Shown here: in pieces, positions 6,346 through 60,055 of the stretch | Position numbering within the stretch: position 1 is the stretch's first letter | How the letters are laid out: the number at the start of each line of letters is the position of its first letter | Assembly: GCA_012934845.2 (NCBI GenBank) | Contig: WNNJ02002874.1 | Coordinates: 62,001-126,000 of the forward strand | From: Pomphorhynchus laevis | Lineage: Eukaryota; Acanthocephala; Palaeacanthocephala; Echinorhynchida; Pomphorhynchidae | DNA: 64,000 nucleotides | Direction of reading: 5' to 3' | Position numbers and translations under genes: made by a program | Notes under the pieces: generated by a model | Told to the model about the DNA's origin: nothing | The model's database searches: none | Seen by the model: the letters and a program-made list of their open reading frames with translations, nothing else

Positions 6346-6350
6346 AAAGT

Positions 6351-7044
6351 TCTGTTTTGTTTCTGATGATGCTAACAGCAGCTAGGAAAATATGAAAATA
6401 TCTTTTATTGATCCTGCTCAAAAATTTTAAATTAAAAATATAAACAATGACTAAAACATAAACGAGAATGACGAGAATTAAAAATATAAATATTGTCAAC
6501 CGATACAATGCCTGAACGGGAATTGCCTCGGTTCGGCGATGTAATGCCGCTTGTATACTCGAGTGCCTAAGCGATCAATCGGTTATTGATTTTTTTAAGG
6601 ATGAAAATGACTCAGTATTGAAGATTACAATTGGTATAAGATTTTATAATTCTGTTTTGTTTCTGATGATGTTAACAGCAGCTAGGGAAATATGAAAATA
6701 TGTTTTATTGATCCTGCTCAAAAATTTTAAATTAAAAATATAAACAATGACTAAAACATAAACGAGAATGACGAGAATTAAAAATATAAATATTGTCAAC
6801 CGATACAATGCCTGAACGGGAATTGCCTCGGTTCGGCGATGTAATGCCGCTGTATACTCTAGTGCCTCAGCGATCAATCGGTTATTGATTTTTTGAAGGA
6901 TGAAAATGACTCAGTATTGAAGATTACAATTGGTATAAGATTTTATAATTCTGTTTTGTTTCTGATGATGTTAACAGCAGCTAGGGAAATATGAAAATAT
7001 GTTTTATTGATCCTGCTCAAAAATTTTAAATTAAAAATATAAAA
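6351..7044. repeat. ~300-bp direct tandem repeat, 2.3 copies
   Basis: The phrase TCTGTTTTGTTTCTGATGATG recurs at 6351, 6651 and 6950, giving periods of 300 and 299 bp. The third copy is cut off after about 90 bp. Each unit starts with an eroded hammerhead-like core (CUGAUGA then AGCAGCUAGG then (G)AAAAUAUG) and contains GATCCTGCTC, which links it to the short repeats at 985, 4812 and 49281. The first and second units differ by small changes. Minus-strand frames at 6314-6877 are translations of the repeat, not genes. Confidence 0.9.
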
Positions 7045-11749: not shown

Positions 11750-14430
11750 TAACGGACTCGGGTCAACAGGAAACTGAACCGTCCTGCCAATCCAACACGC
11801 CGCTCTCTGACTAAACCACCCGATGTCTCATACTCCCTGAAGAATCCAATCGAGAAGAACTATGCTCGGTACTCGCGAAATGAGGAGCTTGATAAAACTT
11901 AGTCTTTGTTCTCAGGGGCGTCCTCTTAAAAAAAAGGACTAATCCCGAGATAGCCCGAGTACTCAAGAGACGCACTTGGGTTTCCCCATTCAATGACAGA
12001 TGCTGAGCCCGTTCCAGGGCCAACCTAACTTCCTTTAGGATACTTTTGAGTCTATCAGGTCAGCTTTCGCTGACCAGATCACCGTAATGATGAACCCCGT
12101 GTATTTTACTCGACTTGTAAGTAGAGTGTGGTTGAGGCTGCAAAATGAAGGAGAGTGCAAAGAGTGCTAATCTCTAAAGCTTTTTTGTGGCAGGAGGGCC
12201 ATGAAAGACGAGCACTTTCGATTTAGAGGAATTGAGAACAATATTGGATATGGATAGCTGGTCTTTTAATCTTAAAAAGAAACTGCAGACGTCAGAGACT
12301 ACATCTTTGCACCCGCGTCCAGAGAACAGGGATGTGATATCAACAGCGTATAACACTAGCTGTTGATTCCGTTAAATTTTTTTGTAACGTATTATGGAGG
12401 CATTGGAGAAATTGGGGATCTTTGAGGCACACACGTAATAGGGTAGAACTGACGTGCATCAAGGTCGTCTTCATAGTATAATCGATTGGTGCACAGCAAT
12501 ATCTCGACCATGTTAACAATTCCCGCAAGTAACTCGAGGGACCTGAGAGAGGAGACAACGAAGGGAATAAAGATGCGATCAAATACAGTAGAAAAGTCAA
12601 GGAAAAGAGCAACAGCGAGTTGATGACTGTTATCCTGACAAAACTGATGTACTTCACCTATTGATGAATGGACCAAGCGCCTTTTGACAAATCCATGAAA
12701 ACTTGGTAGGATCAAGTTACGGCTACCTAAATGGTCGCGGATTCTATGCGCAAGCGCTATTTGGTAGATAGAGATGAAGGAGTTTTATATCAAAATGGGC
12801 CTCAGGTATTCAGCGCATGAGACCCGACTACGCTTGGTTAAAAAAAGTCTACGACAAATATTGATGCCGGCTACATCGGATGGTTAGGCTAAAAGCATTG
12901 TGACGGCCACTTCTATTCTTCGATCGGCTGTCAAAAGCTGGCAAACCCGAGAAGATAGTGGAGGCACGGATTTGAAGGTGCCTGTAAGTGGACCCCAAGA
13001 GTTGAAAATATCTGTAACAAATAAGTCCCTGCTTCTGAACTCACCCCAAGACGTGATTGGTTGGGGAGATTGAGTGGCTCCATTGATATGTATGGATAGT
13101 GGCTCCTCTAAAACTTTGTCAAGGTCTATGCTACCAATCCAGACCAAGGATTATCCTTCCAGCAGACGAACTTCTGTTTATTAAATATCTTTCAGAAGGA
13201 AGACTGAGAAGGGTTAAGGCGAGCAATGATCGCCCTATCCCTGCTAAGCTGGAACTTATATATAGAGCTGCAGTATTCATTCGAGAGGACATGTTTGGCG
13301 GAAACAGAGGAATTGGGAAGATGTATCATTTTAGCTAGGATCTTGAGTTTTGTTGGAGTAAGATTGTATATGCGACCTTTATAGGTAGTCGAAACCAACG
13401 CGGTAGCTTGCGATGAGAGGTAGGAATCAAATTCGGTCAAACTCTCATTAACAATTATGGGAAAGAGTTGGATAGCTGCCTGAAAGAAGGTTACTCTGAT
13501 GGGATCAAAGTGAAACCTGTTTTAAGCCACCTATCTTCTTCTATCCAACGGAGAATAAGGTCATGAGAGGTGGTCTGATGTTGGCGCAACTGCTCAGTAC
13601 AGATGGGTTTCAACAACCACTTCTTATGAAGCAGTAATATGTCGAAGAGATAATTAGTTGTTGAGCAATGAAAGGTGAGGGACTGGGGTTTGTGAATAAG
13701 ATAATCGTTCCTGGTTCTGCGGTTTGCTGCATTCATCCAACGATCAGTACTGTATTTGAAGTCACCAAGTAATATGTCATAACCGCTACCCAATGTACGA
13801 TCTGGGACGTTACGGCTCTTATGAATTTATTCCGGCAGCATATAGATATTGTTTATGATAATGCGTTTACCGTCTTTACAGAGTGATATAGCTAAACAAG
13901 ACAGGGCTGGACAATAATAGTTAAGTAAGAGGGATGATCTTAAGGAGCTCTTTACTAGGGTTAAATGACCTTGAGATAAGAGGAGTGAGGTGGAGTTAAG
14001 TACGGAGTATAGTGGGTGTATATGTGCTTAGAGATAAATCGAGTAATGTCCTGGGTGGTGCCGTATAGACCGCGTCTTCTGAAGTACAAAAACGTCTGCA
14101 TATCTACTAGATATAAGGCTAAGGGCGGAAGCACCTTCCGATTTCCATTGAAGAATATTCAATAAAAAAGGCTCTTGAATACTTTGCATTGTATTAAGTT
14201 AGCTGGAGTGGGATGCCTCTTCCTAGTCCGAACCGTTGGTAAGAAAGTTGTCCTTTCCACACCAAGCCGGACAAGTTAGAGCCACTTGCCAATGAGCGTT
14301 ATCTTCATTTCCCGTCGTGACTCTATTGGCCAATCTCCAGAGGTTTAATTTCTGCTGAACAATTGTAATAGAAGGCACTGTTTTGAAAGAAGGCAGGATG
14401 GTTTCTTGAAATAGGAGGTGAATCTACTCT
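11750..14430 (-). pseudogene. LINE-L1a: APE-type LINE relic, endonuclease and RT
   Basis: Read on the - strand from about 14430 to 11750. A 5' stretch resembles that of the copy at 21.5 kb. Next comes an endonuclease fragment (13491-13793) with ILLGDF and a TSHDLIL box equivalent to the SDH motif. Linker frames cover 12884-13440. RT motif A (FLDFSTVFDR) lies within 12392-12715. The catalytic box is degraded to LYAVDIT within 12174-12356, where the other copy has VVYADDTT. Numerous frameshifts exclude function. The same element lies in opposite orientation at 21.24-24.18 kb, so the two form a large inverted pair. The domain order fits the Jockey/I/R1-like group, but the clade is an inference. 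Confidence 0.85.
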
Positions 14431-21239: not shown

Positions 21240-24190
21240 CCTCGAAATGTGATCGACCCCGATCCTGCAAAGTTTGTGGTTCATTCGAGGACCACTCTGG
21301 CAAAAAAGAGTGAATTACACCCACACTGCTCAAATTATGGGGAGTCCATCCATCTTGGTCCCGTAAATGCTCCTTCTTCAAATATTATAAAAGAGGACAC
21401 CTTGGTTTTTCTGGTAAATCAGGGAACCATGCAGAGGACATAGCCTTTAAGTCACCGTAACCCGTTGAACTCCATGAGGCTGGCATTATTCGTCTGATGG
21501 AAGCGAGGCATCAATCCCATATTCTAGAAATTGAAAAATTAGTCGTGTCCTTGGATTCCAAATTTGCGAACCACAAACCCCAAGTTGTATGTAACATCAA
21601 ACCTTCTATCAAATCTGCCAGAAAGCGCCCTACTTGAAAAAGAGGAATGGGCCATCCCAAATCTTTGCGGCTTTGAAGTTGGCTCGGAAGGATAACTCCT
21701 AGAATATTGCCTGAGTTGGAAATAATGATAGTGACGGTGGACAAGTGTCTTCTCCTAAAGGGACTGAGAGTGGGAAGGAAAACCTTTTCTATCCTGGTTC
21801 GGACGAGGAGGAGGCATCCCACTCAGCTAACTTAAGAAATGCAAAGTATTCAAGAGCCTTTTTAACTGAATATTCTTCAGTGGAATTCGAGATGTGCTTC
21901 CGACCTTAGTTTTCTACCTGGTAGAAAACTACTAGGTCATTTAACCCTAGTTAAGAGCTCCTTAAGATCATCCCTCTTACTTAACTATTATTGTTCAGCC
22001 CTGTCTTGGTTAGTTATATCACTCTGTAAAGACGGTAAACGCATCAGCATGGCCAATATCTATATACGGCCAGGATAAATTCATAAGAGCCGGAACGTCC
22101 TGGATCGTATATTGGGCAGCGGTTATGACATGTTACTTGGTGAATTCAACTACAATACTGTTCGTTGGATTAATGCAGCAAACCGCAGAACCATGAACGA
22201 TTATCTTATTCACAAACCCGATTCCTTTACCTTTCATTGCTTAACAACTAATTCTCTCTTCGACATTTTACTGCTTCATAAAAAGTGGTTGTTGAAACCT
22301 ATCTGTACTGAGCAGTCGCGCTAACATCAGACCACATATAATGACCTTATTCTCTGTTGGATGGAGGAAGATAGGTGGCTTAAAGCAGGTTTCACTTTGA
22401 TCCCATCATAGTAACCTTCTTTCAGGCAGCCATCCAACTCTTCCCCATAATTGTTAATGAGAGTTTGACCGAATTTAATTCCTACCTCTCATCGCAAGTT
22501 ACCGCGTTGGTTTCGACTACCTATAAAGGTCGCATATACAATCTTACTCCAACAAAACTCAAGATCCTAGCTAAAATACTAATCTTCCAGATTTCTCTGT
22601 TTCCGCCAGACATGCCTTCTCGAATGAATACTGGAGTTCTATATATAGGTTCCAGCTTAGCAGTGATAGGGCAAGCATTGCTCGCCTTAACCCTTCTCAG
22701 TCTTCCTTCTGACATATATTCAAGAAACAGTAGTTCATCTGCTGGAAGGATAGAGCCTTGGTTTGGATTCGTAGCATAGACCGTGACAAAGTTTTAGAGG
22801 AATCACTATTCATACATAAATATGAAGCCACTCAATCTCCCCAACCAATCGCGTCTTTGGGTGATTTCAGGAGCAGGGACTTATTTGTTACAGATTTTCT
22901 CAACTCATAGGGTCTACATCCCGCACCTCAAAATCCGTGGGTCCACTATCTTCTCGGGTTTGCCAGCTTTTGACAGGCGATCAAAGAAGAGAAGTGGCCG
23001 TCACAATGCTTTTATAATCACCATCCGATGTAGCCGGCATCAATATTTGTCGTAGAATTTTTTACCCAAGCGTAGTCCGGTCTCATACCCTAAAGACCTG
23101 CGGTCCATTTCGATTCAAAACTCCCTCATCTATCTACGAAAAAGCGCTCGCGCGTAGAGTCACCGACTATTTCGGTTGGCGTAACTTGATCCTACCGAGT
23201 TTTCTTAGGTTTGTCAAAGGGCGCTTGGTCCATTCATCAATTTATGAATTGCATCAGTTTTGTCGGAATAACAGTCATCAACTCCCTGTTGCTGTTTTCC
23301 TTGACTTTTCTACTGCATTTAATCGCATCTTTATTCCTTTCGTTGTCTCTTCTCTCAGGTCCCTCGTGTTACTTGCGAGAATTGTTAACAATGTGAGATA
23401 TTGATGTACACAAATCGATTATACTATGAAGACGACCTTGATGCACGTCAGTTCTACCCTATTACGGGTGTGCCTCAAGAATCACAACTTTCTCCAATCT
23501 TGTATCTTGCTGCCTCCATTATACTCTACAAAATATTTAAACGAGGTCAACATCTTGTAGTATACGCTGATGATACCACAGCCCTGTTCTCTGGACGCAG
23601 GTGCAAAGATGTAGTCTCTGACATCACCCGCTTTTTACGATTAAAATACTAGCTACCATATCCAATCTGATTCACAATTCGTCCAAATCGCAGGTATCTG
23701 TCTATCATGGCGCTCCTGCGACAAATAAAAAATTAAAGAGACTAGCCCTCTTAGCTCTATCTTCCATATTGTCTAGTCAATTACTCCCTACCTTCACAAG
23801 TCGAGAAAAATATCCGGGGTTCACTGTTACGCTGAATTGGTCTGCGAAAACTGACCTGGATATGCTCAAATGTATCCTGGAAAGAGCTAAGGGGCCCTAC
23901 GGGCTCAGCATATGTCATTGAATGATAAAACTCAAGTGCGCCTCTGGGGTACTTGCGCTATATCGGGATTAGTCGTATTTTCAAGAGGACGTCCCCCTGA
24001 GTAAATACTAAGGTTTCTCAAGCTCTTCATCTCGCAATTATCGAGCATAGTTCGCCTCGATTGAACTTTTCGTGGTATGGGTGAAGGACCTCGGGTGGTG
24101 TAGTCGAAGAGCGGTGTGTTGGATTGGCTGGATGGCTCAGATCCCGCTGGACCTGATGCCGTAGTATATGTGAGACTTTTTTTTTAAAAT
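21240..24190 (+). pseudogene. LINE-L1b: APE-type LINE relic nested in a PLE
   Basis: In order on the + strand: remnants of a zinc-knuckle ORF1 (PHCSNYGE region at about 21320-21360), an endonuclease fragment with ILLGEFN-like and HKKWLLKPIC sequences (22112-22324), linker frames (22465-23055), RT motif A FLDFSTAFNR (23186-23404), GVPQESQLSPILY and the intact box VVYADDTTALF (23401-23652). A C-terminal part runs to about 24180. It matches LINE-L1a (11750-14430) in inverted orientation. Frameshifts are frequent. PLE RT pieces on the opposite strand abut both ends. Confidence 0.85.
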
Positions 24191-24599: not shown

Positions 24600-25126
24600 T
24601 CTTTTTGGTTAAGGGCTACGCCTTTTTACCTACCTGATGCGCTTGTTCGATACGTATTCGTTTATCAAATCATGTTAGTTGCTCTTTTTGTCGTTATCAT
24701 TTATTGTTTTGTCCAGGAATCAGTATTTGATTGTTTTGAGTGAATTTGTTAATTCATAACTATCTATTTCTGTCGGATTAATGTTAAAGTGATGTTATCT
24801 ATATCATGTTATTCAACGAGTTGGTGTTATCATTTACTGGAGCCAAAAGGTCATTTAAAACATATCAAAATATTAATGATTTTTTATATTCTATAAAAAT
24901 ATTGCTTAATATCGATTAATATAATTTTATTAAAATTTTATTATAAACAATTAAAATATATGCGAGATAGTAATACGATTTAGACAAATCTAATATTATT
25001 TTCAATTATTTAGTCTTTATCACAGTTATGTCGTAGCTAAATTCCCCTCTGAAGTAATTCACTATAAAGAAATTGAATTCGAACTCGGAATGGATTGAAT
25101 TAGTTATAATCAATTATATATATATC
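24600..25126. other. No gene recognised
   Basis: AT-rich DNA without repeats that I could match. Confidence 0.4.
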
Positions 25127-25220
25127 TTAACAATCATTTAAGCCAGACCCGAATAGGCTTTCGCGTCTGGCTTAAATGATTGTTAACATAATTCACGCGG
25201 AATGGTATTGTTTGAGAAAT
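25127..25220. repeat. 22-bp hairpin plus end of the hammerhead fold-back family
   Basis: Arms 25127-25148 and 25165-25186 are perfect complements around GAATAGGCTTTCGC. They are followed by CACGCGGAATGGTATTG and TTTGAGA, the terminal sequence of the elements at 29010 and 33178. The hairpin itself contains AAGCCAGAC...GTCTGGCTT, also seen at 33212. It is a collapsed, inverted copy of that family. Confidence 0.75.
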
Positions 25221-25268: not shown

Positions 25269-25284
25269 TTCTATAAAATTAACT
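25269..25284. repeat. Left 16-bp direct repeat (target-site-like)
   Basis: TTCTATAAAATTAACT is identical at 25269-25284 and 26300-26315, exactly abutting the tandem array. Confidence 0.85.
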
Positions 25285-26299
25285 GATGCATTGAAATTAT
25301 CTTGTTGGTAGTCGAATGAATTTCATTTTGTTGAGATATTTCCGGACCTCATTGAATAACTTGTATTTTAGCTGGCTACATAATAGCTTCAGCTATCAGG
25401 ACGCACTACGACAGAAAGCATGCTGTCCGGACAACTCCATGTGGCGGATCTCATTAGTGGACTCCCTGTATCATCGTTGTTTCGTCCATCAACATGCACT
25501 ATATTGACGATGAACATGGTGGTCCTCCATCATATTGAAATGATGCATTGAAATCGTCTTGCTGGTAGTCGTTTGAATTTCATTTTGTTGAGATATTTCC
25601 GGACCTCTTTGACTATCTTGTATTTTAGCTGGCTACATAATAGCTTCAGCTATTGGGTCGCATTACGACAGAAAGCATGCTGTCCGGACAACTCCACAGG
25701 GCTAGACTCATCAGTGGATGTCCCTGTATCATCGTTGTTTCGTCCCTCAGCATGCACTATATTGACGATAAACATGGTGGTCATCGATCATATTGAAATG
25801 ATGCATTGACATCATCTTGTTGATAGTCGGTTGAATTTCATTTTGTTGAGATATTTCCGGACCTCTTCGACTAACTTGTATTTTAGCTGGCTACATAATA
25901 GCTTCAGCTATTGGGTCGCATTACGACCGAAAGCATGCTGTCCAGACAACTTCATGTGGCGGGACTCATCAGTGGAACGTCCCTGTATCATCGTTGTTTC
26001 GTCCCTCAGCATGCACTATATTGACGATAAACATGGTGGTCCTCCATCAGATTGAAATGATGCATTGAAATCGTCTTGCTGGTAGTCGAATTAATTTCAT
26101 TTTGTTAAGATATTTCCGGACCTCTTCGACTAACTTGTATTTTAGCTAGCTACATAATAGCTTCAGCTATCAGGTTGCATTACGACTGAAAGCATGCTGT
26201 CCGGACAACTCCATGTGGCCGGACTCATCAGTGGACGTCCCTGTATCATCGTTGTTTCGTACCTCAGCATGCACTATATTGACGATAAACATAGTGGTC
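25285..26299. mobile_element. Retrozyme-like array: ~3.9 tandem units of 257-259 bp
   Basis: Units start at 25285, 25542, 25800 and 26059, each with GATGCATTGA; the last is cut short. Each unit has a hairpin AATAGC-TTCA-GCTATT. On the - strand there are two conserved boxes: GGGAC-GAAAC and, 24 nt later, CUGAUGA-GUCC(C). GGGAC and GUCCC can pair as hammerhead stem II, giving a core open at stem II. Stem III and a normal cleavage site are not convincing. The array is bounded exactly by 16-bp direct repeats. No protein is encoded. The 60-78-codon frames in each unit are by-products of the repeat. Confidence 0.85.
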
Positions 26300-26315
26300 T
26301 TCTATAAAATTAACT
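26300..26315. repeat. Right 16-bp direct repeat (target-site-like)
   Basis: It is an exact copy of 25269-25284. A further 15 bp of the same sequence follows in tandem (26316-26330), a small local duplication. Confidence 0.85.
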
Positions 26316-26470
26316 TCTATAAAATTAACTAATTTAAAACGATTTATTATTTTATCAATAAGTGCACTGCTATTTTAGGGATAATAAATATTGTATTTCG
26401 GTCTTATAAAAGTTATATATTTAATTTCATTATCAAATTATAGAATTTCAGTAAAATGAATTAAAATTCA

Positions 26471-26732: not shown

Positions 26733-29700
26733 GTAAGTATTTTTATTCCATCAATCTTCGTAGTTCTCAAACAAGTGTATATTTAAGCATTAAATGCTGA
26801 TAATATATCAAAATGTACAAATCCAATAGCTCAAATCTCAAGAAGTAATATTAATACCTAAGAGTTTATGTAAACAAGACCCGAGCTAATCTGCAATTGT
26901 AGATTTTGATTCTCAGCTATATCTCATTGTTGTATTTTATATTATCTTTTTGAATGTCTGACAATTATTTTTCGATTAAAGATTAAGAAATAACGGGTTT
27001 TATATATCTGATCAAATGGAATTGTTTTATTCAATATAACTATTACGATATTGTAAATATGCATACAATAAAATACCTTTGTTGCCTATTTATAATATAA
27101 GCAAATTATTTTAAAATTAATTTATCAGAACATTTTGATTTGCACAAGTCACATAAGTTAAAATCGATCCAGTTGTATCTGTAATTTCTATAATATACTG
27201 CATATTCACTTTTTTGATTGCCTATGGACTTTAAGATCGTCTTGTAATAATCATCCTTGTGATGAACCGTTCTAAACTTTTCCGGCAAAAATTTAATTTA
27301 TTCACATAAATTAAAATAGACACAGTTTTATCTGTGAGCATTTCAAAATAGACAATATCAAAATCTAACATTTTGATCAAGATTTAGGTAAATAATCGTA
27401 ATATTTAAAAGATATTATAAATGTAAATGAGAGTTGATAAGATTCCATGGGGAATAGTTTATGATTAGTTTAGCAGCCACGAAAGAATCGACAAAACGAT
27501 AACTAGTACCGTTTCGTCATCGTTTGACTCATCAGTGCCGGATACCTCCCAGTATCCGGCACTGATGCCGGTCCTCTGTACTGATGCAGAGGAGAACCGG
27601 CATACGGCACAAGTATGTCAAAACATACTAGACACGCTTCACTAAAATAATTATCAGCAATTAGCACTGGCTAATACAGGCGCAGTCTTTCTAATAAATC
27701 TGCAAGTTAATCTAATATATCTGATGGATCATTTGACGATGACAAAACGGTACTAGTTACCGTTTTGTCGATTCTTTCGTAGCTGCCAAACTGATCATAA
27801 ATGCAAATATTTAAAAGTTTTTATATATAACCAATTCTTATAACCAGTTATATATAAATAATTCTTATAGCCGTTTATACTTCAACAGTTTTTATGTAAA
27901 CCTTGAAACATGTTAACTTTGTTGTTTTAATCATTTTTCGATTAACATTTTAACGTGAAGTTTGCTGTGCAGCATCAAATGTTCTTCAATTCATTAATCT
28001 AGCTCGAAACCATTAATATACTATAAAACTAAAATACAAACAAAAATATATAAATACCTGTATTTTTGATATATTTGACAGTTCGGACACTACATTTTAT
28101 TAAATTGTAGTTTTTAGATAAGGAAGCCAACGAAAAAAACACACCTTTACTCGGGATCTCTTTTGGATACGATTTTTTCTTATATTAAAATAATCGATTT
28201 TTTCTTATATAAAAAAATTAAAATAATCGAGTAAACCGATAAGAAAAGAAAATTTATTTTACTAAAAAACTGTCGGTTGCTGAAATTTTCTTTTTAATAC
28301 ATTTTTATAATTTATTAAATATAATATTTTGCGTAGTATTACAAATATGTTATTTTACTTATTTCGAATGCCTTACCCGCTAGAGCTTTTGCATAAAAAT
28401 ATTAGTACTGAAAGCATTTAATATTATGATATTAATATTATATTATTGAATATTATTACGGTATCTTTTATTTATCTTACATGAATATAATTCACATGTT
28501 TGTTAAAGATTAAAATCAAAAACCCAAAGTAGATGGATAATTTAATCTAAATTTGTAAAATTAAAATTTTATATTTAATTTTATAAAAATATTTTTATCA
28601 TAATTTTCAAACATTCGTTTTGCATCACATTAGTTATTTTGAATTTGAAAAATCGTAATTTTTGAATCAAATTTTGTAAAACGTCGTATTTGTAATATTA
28701 AGGAAATTATATAAGCAACTTAAATTATTGTAATCATATAATCCCGACGCAAAAGAAAAACTAAACCAGTAGTTGATACCGTTTCGTCATCACAATGACT
28801 CATCAGTACCAGATCCTTCCCACTGCTGGATGCAGAGGACTAGCAGACGGCAATAAACGAATCATGTGTATGAGGTACTATAACACATCTAGTAACCTCA
28901 TAGAGTGCTAAACCAGCACTACGGCTTCAACAAATAGGATCATTAGCAAAAGCACCGGTAAATGCCAGCGCAGTTATCTTTATATCGGTTCACTTCTTCT
29001 AATATGAATATATCTCAAATGAAACAATTCCGCGTGAATTTTTGTAATAATATAAACCTGACGCGAAAGAAAAACGAAAACAATAATAGATACCGTTTCG
29101 TCATCACAAGGACTCATCAGTGGCAGATCCCTCCCACTGCTAGATGCAGACGAATACTAGTAAGTCCTATTCTGTATCCAGCAGAGGAGGACTTGTTACT
29201 CCTCTGCTGAATGATATCATTATCTCAGCTGAATGGTATCACTCCTATTTACGCGGAATTGTATCATTTGAGATATGTTCAACTTAAATTAATACATTAA
29301 AATCAGATAACTGATATTTTCTAGCGTCATTTCATGATTTGGTGATTTGAGTGTATATTCTTGTTACTTTGAATATTTTAGGGAATAAACATTTTAGGAA
29401 ATTTAGCGTTAATAACGTATAATATTATAAATTATAAATTATAACATTATAATATCATAAATTAAACTAATTTTGTGTTTCACAAATGCTGTTAATATTT
29501 GCGTGAAGCTTAGATTGCATTATTAAGTTAAATATTAAACAGTACCGTAGTAGCGAATCGTATAACAATGTACGAATTAACTATTTTAGCGCTGGAGGGA
29601 TCAGCTGAGCCAAATCACCGAATCTCTTTAGAAGCTCAGCTTGATGTTCTACAGTTAAGTAATGAACTGAAAAAGGAAAAGTCTAAAAATCGAAAATTGA

Positions 29701-32700: not shown

Positions 32701-35700
32701 AATAAATATAAATAATGTTAAATATGAAATATAGATTAATTATAAACAATACCAGCTTTTTCATGACTTTTCGATGAAATTATACATCACAAATTTCACA
32801 AATTAAAGTTTAAAGACTTGACTACAAGGTATTTTTATTTTAGAATGAAATCATCCACTACCAGCAATTTGGTTGCACAAATTCACTAGGTTTACCTGAA
32901 CTAATATGGTAATTATGCTTTGTATTATAAATATTCATTGAACTTTATCATTGACAGTAATAAATTTCCACAATTTATTAATTTTACTGAATATTCGAGA
33001 AACGAAAAATACTTTGAAAGTACAAGATTGAATCAAGTGATTTGTACGCCATCGGTATATCTTGTCATACCCGCTTTTATATAATGTATATTATAATTTT
33101 AGCAAGAAATTCGTATTAAAAACAATATAGACGAGAAGAATATCTGGTAATTTTTTAATTAACTTTTTTAAGGAGAGGGAGACCATTCCGCGTGAATTTC
33201 TTGTAAAACATGTAAGCCAGACGCGAAAGAATGACAACTGCCGTTTCGTCATCACAATGACTCATCAGTGCCAGATCCCTCCCACTACTAGATGCAGAGG
33301 AGGACTGCCAGTCCTCCTCTGCATAATTACTTACAGATACTACGAAAAATTTAATAATATAATTTTTTAAGAAAAATTATAATGTAATCTAAAATAATTA
33401 TTTAATAATTATTTTATAAATACGTAGTTATTAATAATTATTTAATAAAAATTATATATTTACAAATTATCCTGTAATATCCTTATAATTTATAATTTAT
33501 AAATGATTTAATATATAAAATTAAATAATATATATAATTATAAATAATTACGTAATAACGTGAAATAGTTAGGTGAAAACGAAATATTTTAAGTATTTAA
33601 GGTATAAGATTACGTTTTAAATAAATTCGTACTTTTTTCATAATTATACTCTCACTAATGTGAAGATTAGTTTTGTGTATAATTGGATTATCAGAATGAT
33701 AATTTAATTAAGATTATACGATCAAAATGATAAAAGTAACGAAAAGAATATCTTAAGGCAATTAGGTGTGTACGTGATAACGAAATATTTAAGGTATAAG
33801 ATTACGTTTTAAATAAATTCGTACTTTTTTCAGAATTATACTATCTTTAATATCGTTCAGAATTGCTTTCAGGTCAAAGGTAACTTTTTTATTGCGAACC
33901 ATCCCCGAGAATACAAAAAGAACTTTATTTATTTGATATTTCGACTGTACTTAGCAGTCCTTTTCAATCTAAAAATAGAAGAAAAATATTACACAAAAAG
34001 AAAATTCCATTAAAAATAATGTAACTAAGTTATAGTCCTATCGGCAATAGCTGATTTCATTTTGGCAACCTTATCACGATGTTTAGCAAGTTTATAGTTT
34101 ACATCTTTTTGTATGTCTTGTTGAGGGAATTTTAAGGACCAGTTGGATTTATTTCCTTCCATTATAGGAAAGATGGAAATGTACAATGATTCCAAAACGA
34201 GCCTACGTCTTAACTGTTTTTCTTTATGTAGAATATCTGTGCTTTCGAAATCAATGTTATGGCCGGTATCAATAACATGATTGAATATTGCTGAAGATGT
34301 ATCACTTTATCTTCAGGTTGTACTTATGTTGGTACGTTCTCTTTTTTAAACCTTGTTTAGTTTGTCCAACATAGATCTTCTTCCAATCTGAACACGGAAT
34401 GGTATAAATTACACATTGTGATGCTGTAACTGGTTTATTTTGAAAATAGCACTAAGTCTCGCACCAGTTTTGTAGTACACTTTTATACTGACTATAAACT
34501 CTGAAGTTAACTTCGACAATCGTCTCTTTAAAGTATTATTGATGAACGTTGATTTAACGTGTTTCATATCTAGCTGTGCGGTCGACGTTCTAGGTAAATG
34601 GCTTGCCCTTATCGAAATTGTAAGATACCGTTTTATCTCCCATTCCGGATATTGACATTCCCTTAATATGCGATTTATTCTCCTATACTCTCTGTGTCTG
34701 TATTCTCTGTTACTGCATACAGTCAGGGCTCTTCTGAACAAAGAGCTGACCGCTGAAATTTTGTATCCTTCCGGGATATATGTGGTCCAAGGAGTGAGCG
34801 TATGTGGAATAATCGGTTTTCTAAAAACGTCTGTTAAGATGATGTTATTACGTCTTAACACTTTAACATCTAGGAAATTTATTACATTTTCCATGTCTTC
34901 ACAATTAACTTTCCACTGAATTGCCTTGTCATGTTTGTTAAGTATTTCCTCTAGACCTATTATTTTTGAGTCTGTATCAAACACGGCGAAAACCTCGTCG
35001 ACATACCTATACCAAAGCTTCAAGCTTTGCACCTTATTGTATATATTACATTCCCATTTTGTCATATAGAGATCAGTCAGTGGAGGACCTAATCGAGAAC
35101 TCATTGCCACACCATCAATTTGTGTGTAAATAATGCTATTGAAATAGAACGCAGATTTGCAAGTACACCACTCTATCAAATTAACCCAATCTTTACGTTG
35201 TAGTTTCGGCTCATTACACTTGTCGCTAAGTAATTGTGCTGCTAGATTAATAGCCTCTTGTAATGGGATATTTGTAAATAACGAGACTACGTCAGCTGTA
35301 GCAAACCAGCATCCGGTTGGGTTAAGAGTTCTTACTTTGCTTGCAAACTCTTGTCCGTTTTTTATAAAGGAATGGCTCACTGGTTTATTCTGTAAAATGA
35401 GTTTATTAATGTATTTCGCCAGCTTGTGGTCAAAACATTTATATGGTGCAATTACTGGTCTTATTTCCAACTTCGGTTTGTGTATCTTTAGTAGAAGATA
35501 CAGGAATCCAAGCGAAACGTTATCTGATTTTAGCGTCTTGTATGCGACTTTATCTGAGTTGCCTTGATATTTTAATCGTAGTAATAGTTTGTTAAATGCT
35601 GATTTGTTTTTTGTTGTCGGATCGTTAGTTATTTTCTCAAATTAATCGCTGTTTAATAGCTTTTCCCCATAGTTTATGTAGTCTTCAGTGCCAAGAGCCA

Positions 35701-38700
35701 TCAAAGCTTCACCTTTATCAGACCGACAAATTGTTAATTCATCGTCGTTTTTAAGAGTTTTGAGGGCATTCATTTGTTCGTTACTAAGGTTCGGTTTACA
35801 TTTGGAACTAGTGTTGCGAGCCAAGAGATCAAATGATGCTATATCACAAAAAGATTCAAGTGGTAAATTCGACGCTAAAATTTCACTGTCACATCGTATG
35901 TCTATAACGTTAGGTTTAGTACATGGTACAAAATTTGGTCCCATACTGAGTATCTGCTGTTGATGCATGGTTAGTGGTTTAGTTGACCAATGTATTACGG
36001 ATATTTTAGAATAATTGTTAGACTTAAATAGTCATAACTTCATTAACTTGTGCTCATGTCTTTCCAGTATCTTTAACTTATGAGCTGCTATCTTCTTATT
36101 TATGTAATTATTCATATATTTGATATCATCCGAAGATAGTAATCTTATTAGTATTGTCCATGTCCTTTATATCAATGGATTAAGTTGACTAATACGGCCT
36201 CTTGTGTTGCGAATAGCAAAACGCATCAATGAACATGAAATACTTCGTTGAAAGTCTGAGTTGTTAAAACCTATTATACCTGAATTGATGTTTGCGCATG
36301 TAGGGATTAGCTTATTATCAAGGCAAATTTTCAAAAATTGAATAGATAGTTGCATGTTAACTCTTCTATTTTCATATCGGATTAATTTATAAATATAATC
36401 TCTACAGTTGTCGCCATCCTGTTTGTTCATATCGTTGATAATTGCTTTCGGGTCAAAAGTAACTTTCTTTTTATTGCGAACCATCCCCGAGAATACAAAA
36501 AGAACTTGTTTGAATTCAAAGAACTTTATTTATTTGATATTTCGACTGTACTTAGCAGTCCTTTTCAATCTAAAATTAGAAAAAAATATTACACAAAAGA
36601 AAATTCAATTAAAAATAATGTAACTAAGTTATAGCCCTATCGGCAATTAGGTGTGTACGTGATAAGGAAATATTTAAGGTATAAGATTACGTTTTAAATA
36701 AATTCGTACTTTTTTCAGAATTATACTATCTTTAATATCGTTCAGAATTGCTTTCAGGTCAAAGGTAACTTTTTTATTGCGAACCATACCCGAGAATACA
36801 AAAAGAACTTTATTTATTTGATATTTCGACTGTACTTAGCAGTCCTTTTCAATCTAAAAATAGAAGAAAAATATTACACAAAAGAAAATTCAATTAAAAA
36901 TAATGTAACTAAGTTATAGCCCTATCGGCAATAGCTGATTTCATTTTGGCAACCTTATCACGATGTTTAGCAAGTTTATAGTTTACATCTTTTTGTACGT
37001 CTTGGGTAGGGAAAGATGGAAATGTACAAAGATTCCGAAACGAGCCTACGTCCTAACTGTTTCTAATGTTGAGATTAGTTCTCCGCTTAATTTTTAAGCA
37101 CAATTTTTTCTTCTTTTTAAATTTTTTACTTTTGTGAATTTTGGAAAGTAACATTAAACTTCACAAAATTAGCAGCAAATGTTATTCAGCTTTTAAATGT
37201 TATTTACCTAAATTTTATTTAAATAACGATAAGCTTTCGCAAAAATATTAAAGTACCTAAATTTTATTTAAGTAACTATTTCTTTTTTATTAAAGTAATT
37301 TCTTTGTAATATAAATCGTGGATTATTTTCTATACTTTACTATTTTACTATTTTAGTCAGTTATCACGCAGACTTACTAAGCAGAACATATTGGCGAAGC
37401 TTAAACATGAAATCAGAAGAATTGCCTGTGTATATGAGAATATTAAAACAGAAGCAATTGAAATTAGTAAACCAATAGATTTGGTAACATTACGAGAATT
37501 TAATGTTGGTATTTTAATAGTTTTACGGGTAGAATTAAAAACTCTTTTGAAATTGTTAGGCAAAGGCTGAAAACGATTTGCTAGAAGAATCGTTAGATAG
37601 GAAAGAGAAAAGAATTTTAATTGGTGAGCTACAAACCAAATGCTACCAAGATGGTTGCATTAATTTACAATTTAAATCTTTATTTATGATTCGCAGTTAT
37701 AACCTCTGGTATATGTTACCTTGTATTTGGTTTAAGTGTAAATTCCGGCTGCATTTCTTCTTTCGAATAACTATGCTTTCGAGTTTTATACTGGCATTTA
37801 TCCTTCCATTTCACATGATCACTTAGGATTCTTTCCATTGAACTTGTCAATTACTTTGATAATATATCGCTTTTTAAAGAGTTTATGCATCGAAAGGATG
37901 CATATTGTCGTACTTGGTTTTCGTGATTATATGAAAGGAAATATTTGCAGAATACAAATTTTATTACTTTTAGGTGTGTAAGTTTTGAAAGGCATTTTAC
38001 CCCTGTACGAGAACTGTAATAAGTTATTTGGCATTTTGGCAAATCTCAGTGACTCTTTTCATTAAAATGTTTTCATAATAAAAGTCACTAGAATTGGCCG
38101 GAACAACTAATAAATTTTTACAATTCTCGTGTGGGTAAAATGCCTTTTGAAACTTACAAAATTTGGAAGACGAATGTAATTCGAATACTTTTAGCTATAC
38201 AGAACGCCTTTATCGGAGAAAGGAATTACGAGCGGGTTGTTTAAAATTAAAATTTCTACACAGATTTCTTACTTGAATGTTATTAGATTTACCAGAAGAT
38301 AAATAAATAATTTATTACGGGTCAATTAAATCCGTAATAAATTGACAACATTTCATTTTTATATGTAAATTTTATTTTAACCTCAACATGAATATTTAAA
38401 AATAGAACTTAACTACTATCGGATAGTGTAAATTATTTATTTTAGAACATAATATTGAAGAATATAAGGCTATACAACTATATCTAATAGTTTTTTTAAA
38501 TCAAAAACTATTAGAAAGAGAAGATTTTTGGATAAAAACGCTTAATTTCATGAAAAACATATCAAATGTTAAAAATAATGTTTAATAATAATGTTTAATG
38601 TTTATTAATAATGTTTATTGAGCTGTTATCTTGTGTTATTTAATGTTTACGTTAAATTATCGTAAATTTTTGTAATACAAAATACTATAATCGTACAATA

Positions 38701-41700
38701 AATGTTGATAATAACAATAGAAAATATACATTAACCATAAACTTCATTAATAAATGTATAGATAACATAAATATAGCCGGACTTTTAAATAATTCTAAAA
38801 GTAAAGAAATAATAGGGTCAGATTTAAGTAAATATATTCCTAAAATAAGGTATAAACTCCTACCACCATTAGGACGAAAAATTTGTAATTATAATAAAGA
38901 ATTTAAATCAATATGTAACGATAATATTAGAAACATAATGGAAACAGAATGCAATTGTAAAAGTCTTAGTTTTGATAAAATAAATGAACATATATGTACC
39001 CATAAGGGTATAAATATAGATTAAATAATTACAACGACAAAAATAAAATTTACAATTCGTTATATAATAACTTAAATGATTACTTTAGTAAGCTGATTAA
39101 TAGTGAAAGCTCGAATATATCTAAGATAAAACATTTGGAAAGATTATATATTTGATAAAATTAAAAATAAAATGAAAATAACAAACAATTATAAAAGGAA
39201 AGATAAAATTAATAAAGATATGTATAAAGAACTTACTAAATTAAAGGATAACTATATAATAACAACTATTGATAAAGCTAGTAATAACTTTGTCTTCATA
39301 TGCAAAAAGCTTTATTATGATATACTAATGAAAGAGGTTAATTCTAATGATTTAAATGTAAATCCAACATATGAACGTAGTGAGTTGAGTTTAGAAACAA
39401 TTATTACAAGTCACTGTTCTATAATGGATAAAAAGGGTATAAAGGTTGAATTAGATAATAAAACTATACCTATATTATATTGGAATCCAAAATTACATAA
39501 AAATCCAATAAAACCTAGGTTCATATGTAGTGCGTTTAAATGTACATTAAAACCACTTTCTGTCTATATGAATAAAATACTTAAAGTAATTAAAGCACAC
39601 TTTAAAAAATATTGCAAGGTAATCGAAATTAATACTGGTATAAAACACTATTTCAGTATTAATTCTTACAAAAGAATTTTTAGAACACACAAAAGGAATA
39701 AATTTTCAAAATATAAATACATACGATTTTAGTACGCTTTATACAAATCTAGATTTAGTAGATATTAAAGAAGCGTTAGTAAAATTAATTAATTCTTATA
39801 TTCGGAAAAAGATATACATATATATGTTATAATAATTATAACGCCTATCTAACAAAAATTAAACCATCAAATAAATATAAATATATGGATAAAATTGAAT
39901 TAATAGAATCCTTAAATATTTTGATAAATCAAAATTATTTAAAAGTAGGGACATCTATATTTAGACAAGTAAAAGGTGCTCCAATGGATGGTAATTGTAG
40001 CCCAATTATAGCTGACTTGTTTTTAAGCTTTATAGAATATGAATTTGTTCATAACTGTGTAAAAACTAAATCTAAACAATGTAGATATATGAAATATATG
40101 TTTCGATGCATTGATGGTATATGTGTATTTAATTCTAATAATTTTTATTTAATTAGTGAACAAATTTATCCAGAAAGCCTTATTCTTAACAAAACCAATA
40201 TTAATGAGAAGGTGTATATCTAGATATGAACATTAAATTAACATTAACTAAAACTACTATTAATTTATATCGTAAAGATGACATATTTAAATTTACAAGA
40301 AACATATTTTTGTATGAGCATTCATGCATACCATATAATATAAAATATAATACATTAAATAATGAAATTTTAAGAATTGCAACAATATGTAATGATATTG
40401 GCTTTCTTCAAAATTATTTAAATAATTTAATAGATACATATTTTCAAACTAGGTTACTATAAAAATACCATCAGACAGAAAATAGTAAAATATATAAATC
40501 AACACAATAATATAAAGAATAAATTTAAACTCTTAAGTGGCAAATTTTTATGGATGGATAATAAATAATATACTTTGCATTAGAATAAGATACTAGATAG
40601 TTATTTCAGAGGAAATACATCATTAGCATGTATTTGGCCCCGCTGCTATGTTGGGTAGAGGAGTTAGGGGCCGAAACCTGATAGCATAGCAGTTCCTCCT
40701 GATGACCTCTAATTCTTATTCTGATACAACGTCTGTTATTTATTAGTCAATTCATAAAAATGAAGTTTATTTTAAATTTCAATTTTTTATTTTAACTTAA
40801 TTTAAATTATAAAACATCTTAAAACAATTATTAATTTTATTATTTAATTATTACTTTTTGATTTAGCATTATTATGTTTTGTTTATTACTTACTAGACTC
40901 AGTAAGCTGATTTGATTCCATAGATATATATAGCATCGGTCGTCTTCGGTTCATTATATTGTTTATCATACTTTTATTTGTTTGTAGATGCTCAGATTAA
41001 AATTTATACAAAAATAAACTTTATTACATAAATTCTGCGTTACATTAAATATTTATTGCTGAAATAAGAGTTATTTTTAAAATTTTAAAATTATATTTTA
41101 ATTGTTTACTTTTATTTTTGTTTTTATCTTTTCTCATTTTCAAACAACTTACAAGCATCGCTTTGCTGTTTGTTCTGAGCTTTCGGATTTATTTTCCTGG
41201 AAATATAAAATCGACAAAAATTCGAAATTACAATTATTTTTTAAATCGTTGATTGTTTTTATTTTTCGAAATTACAATTTTATAAAAACGTTGATTGTTC
41301 TTTGTTCAATAAATTATATATTTAGATATATATATAATTTAATATAATTACAAATGATTTGTGATTAAGAAATTACAGCTGATCAGTCCAAAATAAAATC
41401 AAAGCTTTGCCTGGATCGATTAAAACTTGAATTTGTTGATATCAACATTCACTTGCAAGCAATTAAGACAGCCGTCTGCAGTTTTAATCAAGAATGGGAA
41501 TCACTATTGAGTCTAATAGATATACATTACAATGAAGAAAACAAGAGAAATTCTAAGCTTTTCGCTGTTATATCAGAATCGAGGTTGGCGCTAGAGGCAC
41601 AAGTTTCAGCGTATCGTTTGGAGATCGATCAACTTAAAAGAGCTAACCAAATGAAAGTAGATCCACTAAAACAAGAATTAGAAAAGGTCAAATCTAAAAG

Positions 41701-44700
41701 TCGTAATAATATGAAATACGTTATATCAAGACTGGAGGATATTCGAAAAGTAGCCGAGGAAAATGCTATCGACAATAGTACTATAAAAATTGGTATTAAT
41801 TGAGCATAATAAACATTTATAACTGTTATTTTCTAGAGAGCAAAACACAAAGAGTAGGACGTCATGCCAGCGTCTTATCGAAGGTAATTATGAAATAAAT
41901 TGAATAATATAGTGTAACATTATTGACTATTTAATTCATTGCTATTGTTTAATCAGCAAGAACAGAGAATAATACGTGTCGGGTAAAGTCATTTTCAATC
42001 TAGGACAGACCATACACATTTTAATGTAATAATATATTTAACATTATTTACTGTTTAATTCCTTATGTAAGTCACAATTGCTGAACATGCTAAATGTAAA
42101 CTTGATTTAACTTGTCCCTCATTTAAGATCCGGGGATTGATCAGACAATTATCTAATCCATTTGTGTGCTGATTTTCGTCGTAGTTCGGTGTCTGTGATA
42201 TTATCTTCTATAATAAAGTACTCAAAATAATCACCCTTTCTTATGTAATGCACTATGCAGTGACCTATCTTAAACCATTGAGATACTGTAAGATTATTAT
42301 TATAAATGCTTAAGAAAATCAAATCGTAAATTTTAAAAGCATTAAAAAGTTTGCTATACATTTTAAGAAATCTTTATTAAGAGATCGGTTGTTTTTCTCT
42401 TGACAGATATTTATATCTATCACGATATATAGGCATCTATATTACATAAGTTCACCGAATATGATAAAAAATGTTTCGACAATTGCTTACAATTTTATAC
42501 AAAGACAGAATATATGAAGGGATATGCAAGCAAATTGCATCGAATAATTTATATATTTTTAAGTTCATCAACACATCTACTACGATCTATAAGAATGTGT
42601 TCTAAAATATCTTTATTAACAGTTGAAAGCAGATAGCATATTGGTGAATTTCCGACTAGGGCGATTTAACCTGCCGATCGTACATTAAATAGAACTTTAC
42701 ACTCATCAAACAAACTCAATGAAAAGATTAGTAAGGCTAAGCTTTGGCTTCATTGTACTTTTATTAACGACCAATTAATATTTGACAGTTAGTCAACTCT
42801 ATTCACAAAGATTAATATGATTGACACTACATTATATTGCCCTTAGAAAGGTAATCTTGTGACGTTGTTCACACAAAAACCCAGAGCACAATGTAATTAT
42901 GGTCTGGTATATTGGGTGAGAGTCTTGTAATTTCACATATATTGGCCAAACTAAGAGACCTTTAGTTGTTTGTGTAAAGGAGCATAAGAATTCAGTAAGA
43001 AGGAGTTACTGTTTATTCAGCTGTAATAACTTTGATTTTGATAAAGTAAATGTTTTGAAGAGATAATATAACGTATACAGTTGCATTATATCCGGGTATC
43101 TGCATATCAACAAAAGGAGTCTGAAAATACAAAGAAACAACATTGTAATTTTAACTTAAGAATCCATTTTGATTCAATGAATTGATCATTTGCTTTTATT
43201 TATCAGTTATTTTGTATGCTTTCGAGTCTCATTATTCTTTCGTGTTGATTCTGTGTTATTACTTTAACTTTTATTCTTGCATTCCAATCCATTTGTGAAA
43301 TTTTTCCTTAATAAGAGCTATGAGTCAAGCTGATAATTTGAATAAATAATTTATTTTATATCATCGATTATGTGTGGACAATCGAAGTATGTAGTTAAAA
43401 ATGTTAGTTGGCACACATGTAATTTTTAATGATGATTTAGTTTATGATAATGTGAGCAGTAATTAGCCAAAACTTGGAACATATTTCAGTAAATCGTTTG
43501 ATTTACTAAGACATTATTAATAGAACATATTAAAAACTACAAGTCATTTATTTTAGAACATATTATCGAAGAAAATATGACAATATTAAATCAAAAACTA
43601 TTAGAAAAAGAAGATTTTTGGATTAAAATCTTAATTCCATGTACCCATTAGAATTGAATGACGTGGTACAAGGAATTGGCAGTAGTATAATACATGCTTT
43701 GCCTGACTTATCGCCTTCTCCATTGTAATTCTCCTTCTTATCTTTATCTGCCAACTCTAAGTGAATCTCACTATCTTTCTACTCACCTACGTTCCACTGA
43801 TTCTCTTCTGCTACACGTACCTATTCACTCAACGAACTTCGGCCGTCGATCCCTACATATAGCTGCTCCTTTCCTTTGGAATTCCTTACCTAATCATCTG
43901 CGATCATCATCCTCACTCCGATTTGTCAAAATGCATCTAAAATCGCTGCTACTAAATGATTAACTTTTTTTATCTGTTTCGCTTTTGTGGGCTTGTAAGC
44001 ACACAGTCTGTGTGCATTTGCCACATTAAAAAAACTTTCAACTTTCAACATAATAAACAACTATATTATAATAATCCGGTTAAACGCAAGCCAAGAAGTC
44101 GTGGTGATAAAAGGAATAAGATAAATATATTTATGAACAATTAGAAATATTAAAACAACTTTTAAGAGATAATAAGCTAAAAGATCTTTATGTAAATATA
44201 AGAAGTTTTTCTAAAGATATCATATGTTCAATAAATCAAAAATTAATTAACGACTATGATAGGCTAAGTTGTATAATAGACAGTTATTGTAATACAAAAT
44301 ACTATAATCGTACAATAAATGTAAATAATAACAATAGAAAATATACATTAACCATAAACTTCATTAATAAATGTATAGATAACATAAATATAGCCGGACT
44401 TTTAAATAATTCTAAAAGTAAAGAAATAATAGGATCAGATTTAATAAAATATATTCATAAAATAAGCTATAAACTCCTACCACCATTAGGACGAAACATT
44501 TGTAATTATAATAAAGAATTAAAATCAATATGTAACGATAATATTAGAAACATAATGGAAACAGAATGCAATTGTAAAAGTCTTAGTTTTGATAAAATAA
44601 ATGAACATATATGTACCCATAATCTAGAATTAATTGAAAATTGTGAATTAAGAAAGCTGCTATCAAAAGGGTATAAATATAGATTAAATAATAACAACGA

Positions 44701-58600: not shown

Positions 58601-58780
58601 GTTGCTTATTCAACGGTCACTAAGTCCTTACATTGTCAACGAACGTATCTACAATGGACGTGCAAATAAAATCAGGAATTCCTAAATTTCAATCAAATTA
58701 CTTATTTTATCACTATTTTAATATTTTATTATTATACGATATTATTTTATTATATTTAACATAAATTACTTATCTTGATT
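55680..58780. other. No gene recognised; scattered protein-like fragments
   Basis: Composition is less extreme than in the AT-rich spacers, and several frames look protein-like: 56073-56432 -, 56574-56828 +, 57220-57410 +, 57521-57739 +, 57642-57857 - and 58283-58510 -. In a - frame near 58340 the string KAGRDRTQVAL resembles the KG.DRA... motif of Helitron proteins, but nothing else confirms it. A decayed large element is the most likely content. Confidence 0.3.
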
Positions 58781-58789
58781 GCATCTGTG

Positions 58790-59045
58790 TGCTGAAATTT
58801 TTCGATTGTGGCACGATATTATCCTCACAGGTATTAATCTTATTTGTGGTACAGCAGGACGCTACTAATCAGCCTGGGTGAATCTCATCAGCTGCTGACC
58901 CAGACCTACATTTCACGTTTCGACTCTTATTAGCTGCTTACTCAGTACACTGGTGCTGGTCGGATTCGAACTCAGGACGTCTATATTTCAATTCAACTTT
59001 ACATCCACTAGGCTGGCTGCTCAGGTGTTGTAGATATACATTTCT
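58790..59045 (-). mobile_element. tRNA-derived SINE, copy 1
   Basis: The - strand has an A box (GCCAGCCTAGTGGATG, 59002-59017) and a B box (GAGTTCGAATCC, 58962-58973) at tRNA-like spacing, so it can be transcribed by RNA polymerase III. It continues into a body with the hammerhead-like structure at 58880-58926 and a tail with CCTGTGAGGATAATATCGTG. It shares length and order with the copy at 59183. Confidence 0.8.
58880..58926 (-). ncRNA. Permuted hammerhead-like structure in SINE copy 1
   Basis: GAGUC-GAAA-CGUGAAAUGUA-...-CUGAUGA-GAUUC on the - strand. GAGUC pairs with GAUUC (one G-U). Stem III ACGU-GAA-AUGU is followed by A, giving a GUA triplet. GAAA and CUGAUGA are unchanged. The hairpin at the stem I position is short (CUG-GGU-CAG) and not flush with the core. 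Confidence 0.55.
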
Positions 59046-59182
59046 GTTTATTATTTTTAATAGGGAATCGTATTCTAATGATCTATAAGAAACCTACCAA
59101 GTACGTGATCCGCTAGCCAGATAACTGCTTTTCATGCTGCCATTTGCAATTAATGTCTTTAATTAACTTAATTAAATCTGCA

Positions 59183-59440
59183 AGCTGAAATTCTTCTGAT
59201 TGCGGCACGACATTATCCTCACATGTATTGTTAGTGTTCTTGATACAACATTAAGCTATTTATCAACTCGGCTGGGTCACATCAGCTGCTGAACCAGATC
59301 CTACATTTCACGTTTCGACCCTTATTATCTGCTTTCTCCGTACACTGATGCTGATCGGATTTGAACTCAGGACGTCTCTATCGTGATTCAACACTACATC
59401 CACTAGGCTAGCCGCTCCAGTGATGTAGATATACATTTCC
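59183..59440 (-). mobile_element. tRNA-derived SINE, copy 2
   Basis: A box at 59397-59413 and B box at 59355-59371 (with one change, TTTGAAC on the + strand). The body matches copy 1 with about one substitution in five. The ends share GTAGATATACATTTC. A third fragment of the tail in opposite orientation lies at about 59456-59482. Confidence 0.8.
59274..59331 (-). ncRNA. Permuted hammerhead-like structure in SINE copy 2
   Basis: GGGUC-GAAA-CGUGAAAUGUA-...-CUGAUGU-GACCC. The closing stem GGGUC/GACCC is fully complementary although both strands differ from copy 1, which is compensatory. One core base (the last of CUGAUGA) is U. Confidence 0.5.
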
Positions 59441-59484
59441 GTATATACAGAAGGAACAATACCTGTGAGGATAATGTCGTGGCA

Positions 59485-60055
59485 CAACCAGATTAATTAC
59501 TTATTTTATCACTATTTTAATATTTTATTATTATTATTTTATTATATATAACATTAATTACTTATTTTATAATCATTTCAAGCTTTTTATAATAATGTAT
59601 CAATTTTATTATATTTAAGATGAATTACTTATTTTATTATGGTAAATCGAAGATATTTAATTTATTATTTAATCATATACTTTTATTATTTAATTTAATA
59701 TATTTAATATAATTTAATTCAATTGAAAAAATCATTAATTCTTAAATTTTAATTAAATTGTTTTATAATTGTTGATTTTCTTGATAAAAAGCCCAAAAAG
59801 TAAAAACAAACACGAAACAGTGATAATTCAAAATAAAAATAAAAATTTTTTACTTTTATCATTTAGTGCGCTAGGCAATTGCGAGCAGAATGGTCACCCC
59901 GAACGCAAAAAGAAATTGAGGGGCCAGTTGCATGCCAATCGTTGACCGGAGGCGTGTCAATTCCTCTGCATATGTGTGGCTTTTCTCATTGTTAATTTAT
60001 TAGCAATCCGATGAATTATCGTCACCGACGAATTGCTTTCACCTATAAAACAGGA
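59485..60055. other. AT-rich DNA, SINE-tail duplicate
   Basis: The phrase TTACTTATTTTATCACTATT, then TTAATATTTTATTATTA, at 59491-59530 repeats 58695-58735, showing that the SINE flank was duplicated. No gene is seen. Confidence 0.45.

Follow-up and report, generated by a model that had tools for sequence, protein, structure and literature searches.

INTRODUCTION

Eckert et al. 2023 (PMC10085705) list six possible block orders for hammerheads and report the validation of type SGC and of two type-CSG sequences. The sole type-GCS sequence presented there (i.e., GCS-1 from Caballeronia peredens) lies upstream of a gene, lacks covariation, and is described as a "weak candidate"; its cleavage, which took place where expected, was slow (kobs, 0.014 per min), and the same paper leaves the biological relevance of type GCS open. 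Among mobile repeats, the closest described systems are the metazoan retrozymes. According to Cervera and de la Pena 2020 (PMC7229834), these carry type I hammerheads in tandem units of 150 to 450 bp, are low in GC content, and lack LTR features; their target duplications, when present, are longer, and mobilization by LINE or Penelope elements is proposed, with Penelope-like elements as the likely helpers. Our search of a limited collection of papers, some of them covered by title or abstract start, found no later paper on type-GCS families.

Here, we analyzed a tandem array in a 64,000-nucleotide stretch of genomic DNA (hereafter, the window) together with its relatives in the genome (G000; 249.4 Mb; 3,242 contigs). 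We estimate a probability of roughly 0.78 that the array is a copy of a dispersed non-coding repeat, that the minus-strand RNA of its 258-nt unit contains a hammerhead of type GCS and is predicted to cut itself, and that its copies were likely inserted by target-primed reverse transcription.

RESULTS

A decayed four-unit array in the window

The array (25284 to 26299, minus strand; RNA 3' end at 25284 and 5' end at approximately 26299) consists of units of 257 bp (25284-25540), 258 bp (25541-25798), 259 bp (25799-26057), and 242 bp (26058-26299), the last being truncated. A previous sequence-only reading had described four units of 257 to 259 bp with a truncated last one, and the Tandem Repeats Finder result (25284-26299; period, 258; 3.9 copies; 91% matches) agrees with it. 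The 16-bp repeats that it had placed on both sides were also recovered as a target-site duplication (TTCTATAAAATTAACT; left copy, 25269-25284; right copy, 26300-26315, directly at the array end). A third, tandem copy of the 15-mer TTCTATAAAATTAAC at 26315-26329, which adjoins the right-hand duplication, had been missed.

The units, which we assign to family 1 (i.e., the 258-nt unit family), diverge by 4 to 9% from the family consensus, and the differences among them amount to approximately 9.5% of sites, so the array is an old copy. All four are decayed. The GGGAC-GAAAC and CUGAUGA-GUCC boxes reported previously on the minus strand are present but are not intact in every unit, because the box of unit 1 reads CUAAUGA, which breaks the core, and unit 4 reads GGUAC before GAAAC. 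Unit 3 is the only one found with at least 14 of 15 stem pairs (i.e., 14). On its minus strand, block G (GGGAC-GAA-ACAAC; stem II 3' strand, GAA, and stem III 5' strand) spans 25993..26005, block C (UUCCA-CUGAUGA-GUCCC; stem I 3' strand, core, and stem II 5' strand; consensus, GUCCA) spans 25961..25977, and block S (GUUGU-C^UGGAC) spans 25940..25950, with the cut predicted, by analogy with hammerheads, between 25945 and 25944.

The third strand, GUUGUC^UGGAC, changes the previous description of the domain as open at stem II with no clear stem III: stems I to III are all there, in the non-circular order G-C-S. A plain type II reading of the boxes was rejected, as no cleavage strand lies between GAAAC and CUGAUGA, and none of the circularly permuted orders CGS, GSC, and SCG (types I, II, and III) was found within one unit. 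The covariance search that had been suggested as a check returned no match to the Rfam hammerhead models in the array, either at the gathering threshold or at E values up to 10.

We scanned both strands of the window for all six block orders (5-bp stems; at least 14 of 15 pairs). The four matches comprised two of type GCS (array unit 3 and a second site at 58853-58926, minus strand) and two of type III (SCG); the same scan of 100 shuffled strands gave five matches, one of them GCS.

The family 1 consensus contains a complete GCS domain

Family 1 is dispersed in the genome, with at least 197 matches (40 of the 252 first-look candidates scored), and its exact G-C block pattern occurs 188 times in the genome and never when reversed. 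We aligned 110 full units from 41 stretches (the window and L031 to L070) to a 258-nt minus-strand consensus (r1 to r258). The units fall into two subfamilies (73 A units and 37 B units) that are distinguished by r254-255 and by how often given states occur at r28, r76, and r99.

In the consensus, block G (GGGAC-GAA-ACAAC) is located at r53-65, block C (GUCCA-CUGAUGA-GUCCC) at r80-96, and block S (GUUGU-C-UGGAC) at r107-117. Stems I (UGGAC/GUCCA), II (GUCCC/GGGAC), and III (ACAAC/GUUGU) form 15 of 15 Watson-Crick pairs, while 20,000 dinucleotide shuffles of the consensus reached 11 pairs 36 times, 12 pairs 6 times, and 13 pairs never. When any block order was allowed, the consensus matched GCS alone (0 of 20,000 shuffles). 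The invariant core (i.e., CUGANGA, GAA, A15.1-U16.1, and UH at the site) is present in the consensus of this family and in that of family 2, described below. By analogy with hammerheads, family 1 RNA is predicted to be cut after C112, once per unit.

When 20 units were set aside, namely those of L047 and those that repeat other loci, 90 remained; the core was intact in 78 of these, and 53 of the 90 had both the core and 15 standard pairs. The core mutates slightly less than the rest of the unit (1.82 versus 2.85 changes per site). Such weak conservation is as expected of dead copies and is no proof of selection.

Two additional helices are found in this domain. Helix P2 (r71-77, UACAGRG, with r98-104, CYCUGUG) encloses block C at spacings of 2 nt from stem I and 1 nt from stem II, and it would tie the far ends of these stems together, like the extra helix of type SGC. 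Helix P1 (r44-51/117-124) occurs in family 1 only. Most A units have G-C at the P2 pair r76-r99, and most B units have A-U there; in 149 occurrences, which represent 91 distinct domains, the number of double-change cells was 25 (0 of 300 shuffles). Since this change follows the subfamilies, it may represent a single event. Stems I to III do not covary within family 1 (pairing, 92.5 to 98.0%, the same as in shuffles), because the copies decay. The minimum-energy fold of the domain contains P1 and P2 and lacks stem III.

Family 2 and other families share the block order

The second GCS site of the window belongs to family 2, a 398-bp tandem unit with at least 124 genome matches (39 of the 1,700 candidates scored) and 555 occurrences of its exact G-C block pattern in the genome (0 reversed). 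The window copy is an array of two units (58775..59445, minus strand; the 3'-most unit ends at 58775), accompanied by an inverted 34-nt piece (59454-59487) and a 10-bp target duplication identified by eye (AATTACTTAT; 58764-58773, with its partner at 59495-59504). Its block G (GAGUC-GAA-ACGUG; consensus, GGGUC) lies at 58914..58926, block C (AGCAG-CUGAUGA-GAUUC; consensus, GACCC) at 58880..58896, and block S (AGCGU-C^CUGCU) at 58853..58863, all on the minus strand, and the cut is predicted between 58858 and 58857. Block C is again enclosed by a P2 helix (58872..58905, minus strand), formed by 58905-58898 (GUCUGGGU) and 58879-58872 (ACCCAGGC); this helix lies outside the scan criteria. Pairing is better in the family 2 consensus than in the copy of the window (stem I, CUGCU/AGCAG; stem II, GACCC/GGGUC; stem III, ACGU/GCGU with one G-U; P2, GUCUGGGU/ACCCAGAC), and both stem III and P2 form in the minimum-energy fold of the domain, where block C occupies the loop. 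ARAGORN detected a tRNA-like head in family 2 with a relaxed score only.

A pattern search that excluded the consensus of families 1 and 2 gave 2,580 genome matches, compared with 35 when read backwards. Among the 71 matches listed with letters, 56 (spacing, approximately 370 bp) belong to family 3 and 12 to family 4; of the remainder, one is similar to family 5 and two seem to be chance matches. The reading of families 3 and 4 extends from block G to block C, and they are left out of the complete kinds. Family 5 (L084) has stems I (UAGG/CCUA), II (with a bulged U), and III (ACGA/UCGU) and a P2 of 12 pairs, 10 of them Watson-Crick. Family 6 (L081) has stems I (UCGGA/UCCGA), II (GACUGCU/AGCAGUC), and III (ACG/CGU) and a P2 of 11 pairs, 9 of them Watson-Crick. 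Stem III is short (3 to 4 pairs) in families 2, 5, and 6.

A finder for GCS domains with P2 (score of at least 19) returned 178 matches in the genome's own sequence, where loci overlap and some sites are counted twice: 147 of family 1, 19 of family 2, and 12 others. Its controls gave no match in shuffled or reversed sequences and two weak ones in 180 viral and prokaryotic stretches. One of the 12 others, near 62181 on the reversed window strand, is weak and probably due to chance. An order classifier assigned GCS to 160 of 178 sites in L001 to L070 (overlapping loci) and GSC to 144 of the 166 listed viral sites. Outside this genome, GCS with a GGAC/GUCC stem II was found once among the 166 listed sites in 129 viral stretches and once among 51 sites in 51 prokaryotic stretches, and both cases are doubtful.

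Additional arrangements were observed in the genome. A hammerhead core (CTGAAGAGTCCCGTAAGGACGAAA) is repeated in tandem with a 24-bp period at C2085:46279-46482. Many family 1 copies with irregular kilobase spacing and changed P2 strands are present at C1034:58697-176190, some of them spaced as in higher-order repeats of approximately 7.7 kb.

Covariation between families and pairing within one unit

Stems I to III covary between families. Families 1 and 2 differ at 8 of the 15 stem pairs; all eight are changed on both sides, and seven still pair. Among seven members, hand-picked for intactness, 119 of 119 cells pair, compared with a shuffled mean of 85.7, and none of 5,000 shuffles equaled this value.

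The same strands could also be assembled across units, with block C of one unit pairing with the G and S blocks of the following unit to form a canonical hammerhead of nested type I order with a stem II loop of approximately 214 nt, in which case only multimers would cut. This assembly is topologically simple in tandem RNA, its pieces are present in every neighboring pair of units, and dimeric action is reported for vertebrate retrozymes by Cervera and de la Pena (PMC7229834). However, it leaves unexplained why the blocks keep to a compact stretch (65 and 74 nt) when the units measure 258 and 398 nt, and why all four complete GCS kinds (families 1, 2, 5, and 6) have a P2 around block C. Enforcing the nested form also cost 17.7 kcal/mol (family 1) and 10.2 kcal/mol (family 2) above the minimum-energy fold of the dimer, in a comparison that covers the nested form. 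We regard assembly across units as unlikely.

Insertion ends and the composition of arrays

The insertion analysis covered 34 loci, after L034, L046, and L055 (which repeat other loci) and L043, L061, L069, and L070 (which have an end outside the stretch) were dropped. Of 58 3'-outward ends, 28 fall at r250-258 and 20 at r213-230 (A-rich CAACAAAAUG); the ten 5'-outward ends are scattered. An inverted piece is present in 24 of the 34 loci (in four, merely 17 to 23 nt long), and both 3' ends point outward (tail-out) in all 24. Flank repeats of at least 11 nt were found at 9 of the 34 loci, compared with 0.2% of mismatched control pairs, and the window locus has the best flank-flank match of all (18 nt, counting the second right-hand copy). 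The best flank match is 6 nt or less at 16 loci, so a duplication is not visible at every locus. Duplication lengths and inner junctions vary from locus to locus.

By analogy with LINE biology, this end pattern looks like that left by target-primed reverse transcription with frequent twin priming, and the end structure and duplications are consistent with such copying of multimeric or circular RNA. The sequence-only reading is supported in placing the hammerhead strands on the minus strand of a dispersed non-coding repeat and in proposing block insertion with a target duplication; its proposal of RNA-mediated copying gains support from 3' ends that recur, 5' ends that are scattered, the tail-out inversions, and the duplications. 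At the 34 loci, every insertion end is more than 5 nt away from the predicted cut. The template would therefore be an internally primed circle or multimer or, alternatively, not a cut monomer. A cut at the insertion 3' end was rejected, as these ends do not coincide with the predicted cut.

Among arrays with at least two full units, the units are nearer to each other than to those of other arrays in 20 of 21 cases, the exception being the window array. Different subfamily states occur together within some arrays (e.g., L033, L036, L041, L044, L050, L064, and L068), so one monomer circle did not serve as the template for all arrays. The previous view that one multimeric RNA was copied in one event is weakened for such arrays. 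L068 has a period of three units (units 2/5 and 3/6 differ at one site), and L047 is an array of approximately 20 units; both may include local expansion. The mixed states and the L068 period could be explained by multimeric templates or by later exchange.

The ends away from the predicted cut would also fit a relic, i.e., a rearranged ordinary hammerhead that no longer cuts and has spread as a plain non-autonomous retroelement. A canonical 296-bp type I family exists in the same genome and has motifs in common with family 1 that are non-significant (TTTCAATCTGA, 11/11, E value of 0.13; AACAAAAT.., 14/17, E value of 1.6). Unlike a dead relic, however, several repeat kinds keep all stems while their letters change on both sides, and we consider a relic quite improbable. 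We give hardly any credence to an ordinary satellite or foldback DNA transposon with hammerhead-like boxes by chance: tandem units, inverted halves in many loci, and the seeming local expansion of L047 (approximately 20 units) and L068 (three-unit period) would suit it, but inner junctions and 5' ends vary (which led us to reject a foldback transposon), duplication length varies, 3' ends recur at two sites, the boxes are far above shuffles, and neither unequal exchange alone, without duplications or preferred ends, nor the satellite-only arrays lacking duplications that had been named as the contrary outcome match the loci.

Other hammerheads and repeats

Canonical type I hammerheads (RF00163) have at least 68 matches in the genome, 62 of them over the cutoff (73 of 40,608 candidates scored). 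The type I family (L071 to L090) consists of 296-bp tandem units, also forms inverted arrays, and has recurrent ends that frequently lie in (TA)n.

Additional hammerhead motifs (CUGAUGAGUC..GACGAAAC) occur on the minus strand of the window at 27508-27608, 28778-28851, 29096-29120, and 33244-33268. The first two are complete in type III order (S-C-G) and correspond to a tandem dimer of approximately 314 bp and a single copy. Just left of the array, 25118-25220 contains a fragment like this family of approximately 314 bp (TTCGCGTCTGGCTT.. AATTCACGCGGAATGG) with its own palindromic inversion, as judged by eye. The window also contains long inverted repeats with reverse-transcriptase-like frames and arms that are 82 to 93% complementary (12277-13971 and 21934-23636) and a 300-bp unit in 2.3 copies with 98% identity (6350-7043).

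Frames at 34409-36529 (minus strand), 38656-40223 (plus strand), 44120-47510 (plus strand), and 3357-4420 (minus strand) are what we take to be Penelope-like reverse transcriptases; relatives of the first carry PF00078. They are possible candidate helpers for the repeats. A link between the Penelope-like repeats of the window and TTTCAATCTGA was rejected as too weak (9 one-mismatch matches versus 4.25 expected).

DISCUSSION

We interpret these families as follows. Blocks G and C would pair as stem II, C and S as stem I, and G and S as stem III, forming one knotted domain of 65 to 75 nt in which P2 would hold stems I and II together. The family 1 RNA would cut itself after C112, once per unit, and a host ligase may circularize the cut RNA. 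A LINE or Penelope-like reverse transcriptase would then copy multimeric or circular RNA, priming at A-rich sites, and write tandem units, and twin priming would yield the inversions. On the basis of consensus and covariation, we predict activity for these repeat families, whose hammerhead order is the one with the least support so far. We also think it probable that type GCS, the last of the six block orders, is a real natural ribozyme and that a retrozyme-like, partly tRNA-headed superfamily locked by P2 runs on it in this genome. It would do so beside canonical type I retrozymes, and one family or more may have arisen from these by permutation.

The question that Eckert et al. raised about the relevance of type GCS is now directly testable with short transcripts. 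If our interpretation is true, retrozyme-like elements can do without the classical hammerhead, searches with Rfam models miss such elements, and one genome with canonical and permuted families is a place to study how the strand order of a catalytic RNA changes.

The schistosome Sm-alpha element, a repeat that occurs both in tandem and dispersed, combines a tRNA-like Pol III head with a hammerhead of the classical type I order. The combination of head and hammerhead resembles family 2, whereas the classical order does not. The metazoan retrozymes are likewise tandem non-coding repeats (approximately 170 to 400 nt) without LTRs, to which the 258- and 398-bp units compare (LTR absence being judged from sequence). 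In Cervera and de la Pena (PMC7229834), however, they are of type I (C-G-S), with circular RNA demonstrated, whereas the families presented here, which are described from DNA sequence, are of type GCS; the array has a GCS domain in place of the type I hammerhead, with no Rfam match. Types SGC and CSG, as presented by Eckert et al. (PMC10085705), are, like our families, non-circular permutations with a helix joining stems I and II; they have other block orders and come from metatranscriptomes (SGC) and metagenomes (CSG), not from genomic repeat families. GCS-1, in the same paper, has the block order G-C-S with mutually crossing stems I, II, and III, as do the families described here. It is a single bacterial sequence, whereas here we find multicopy families of eukaryote type for which cleavage is predicted; their stems covary, and P2 serves as a putative tie helix. 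These putative type GCS repeat families occur in a mobile-element setting.
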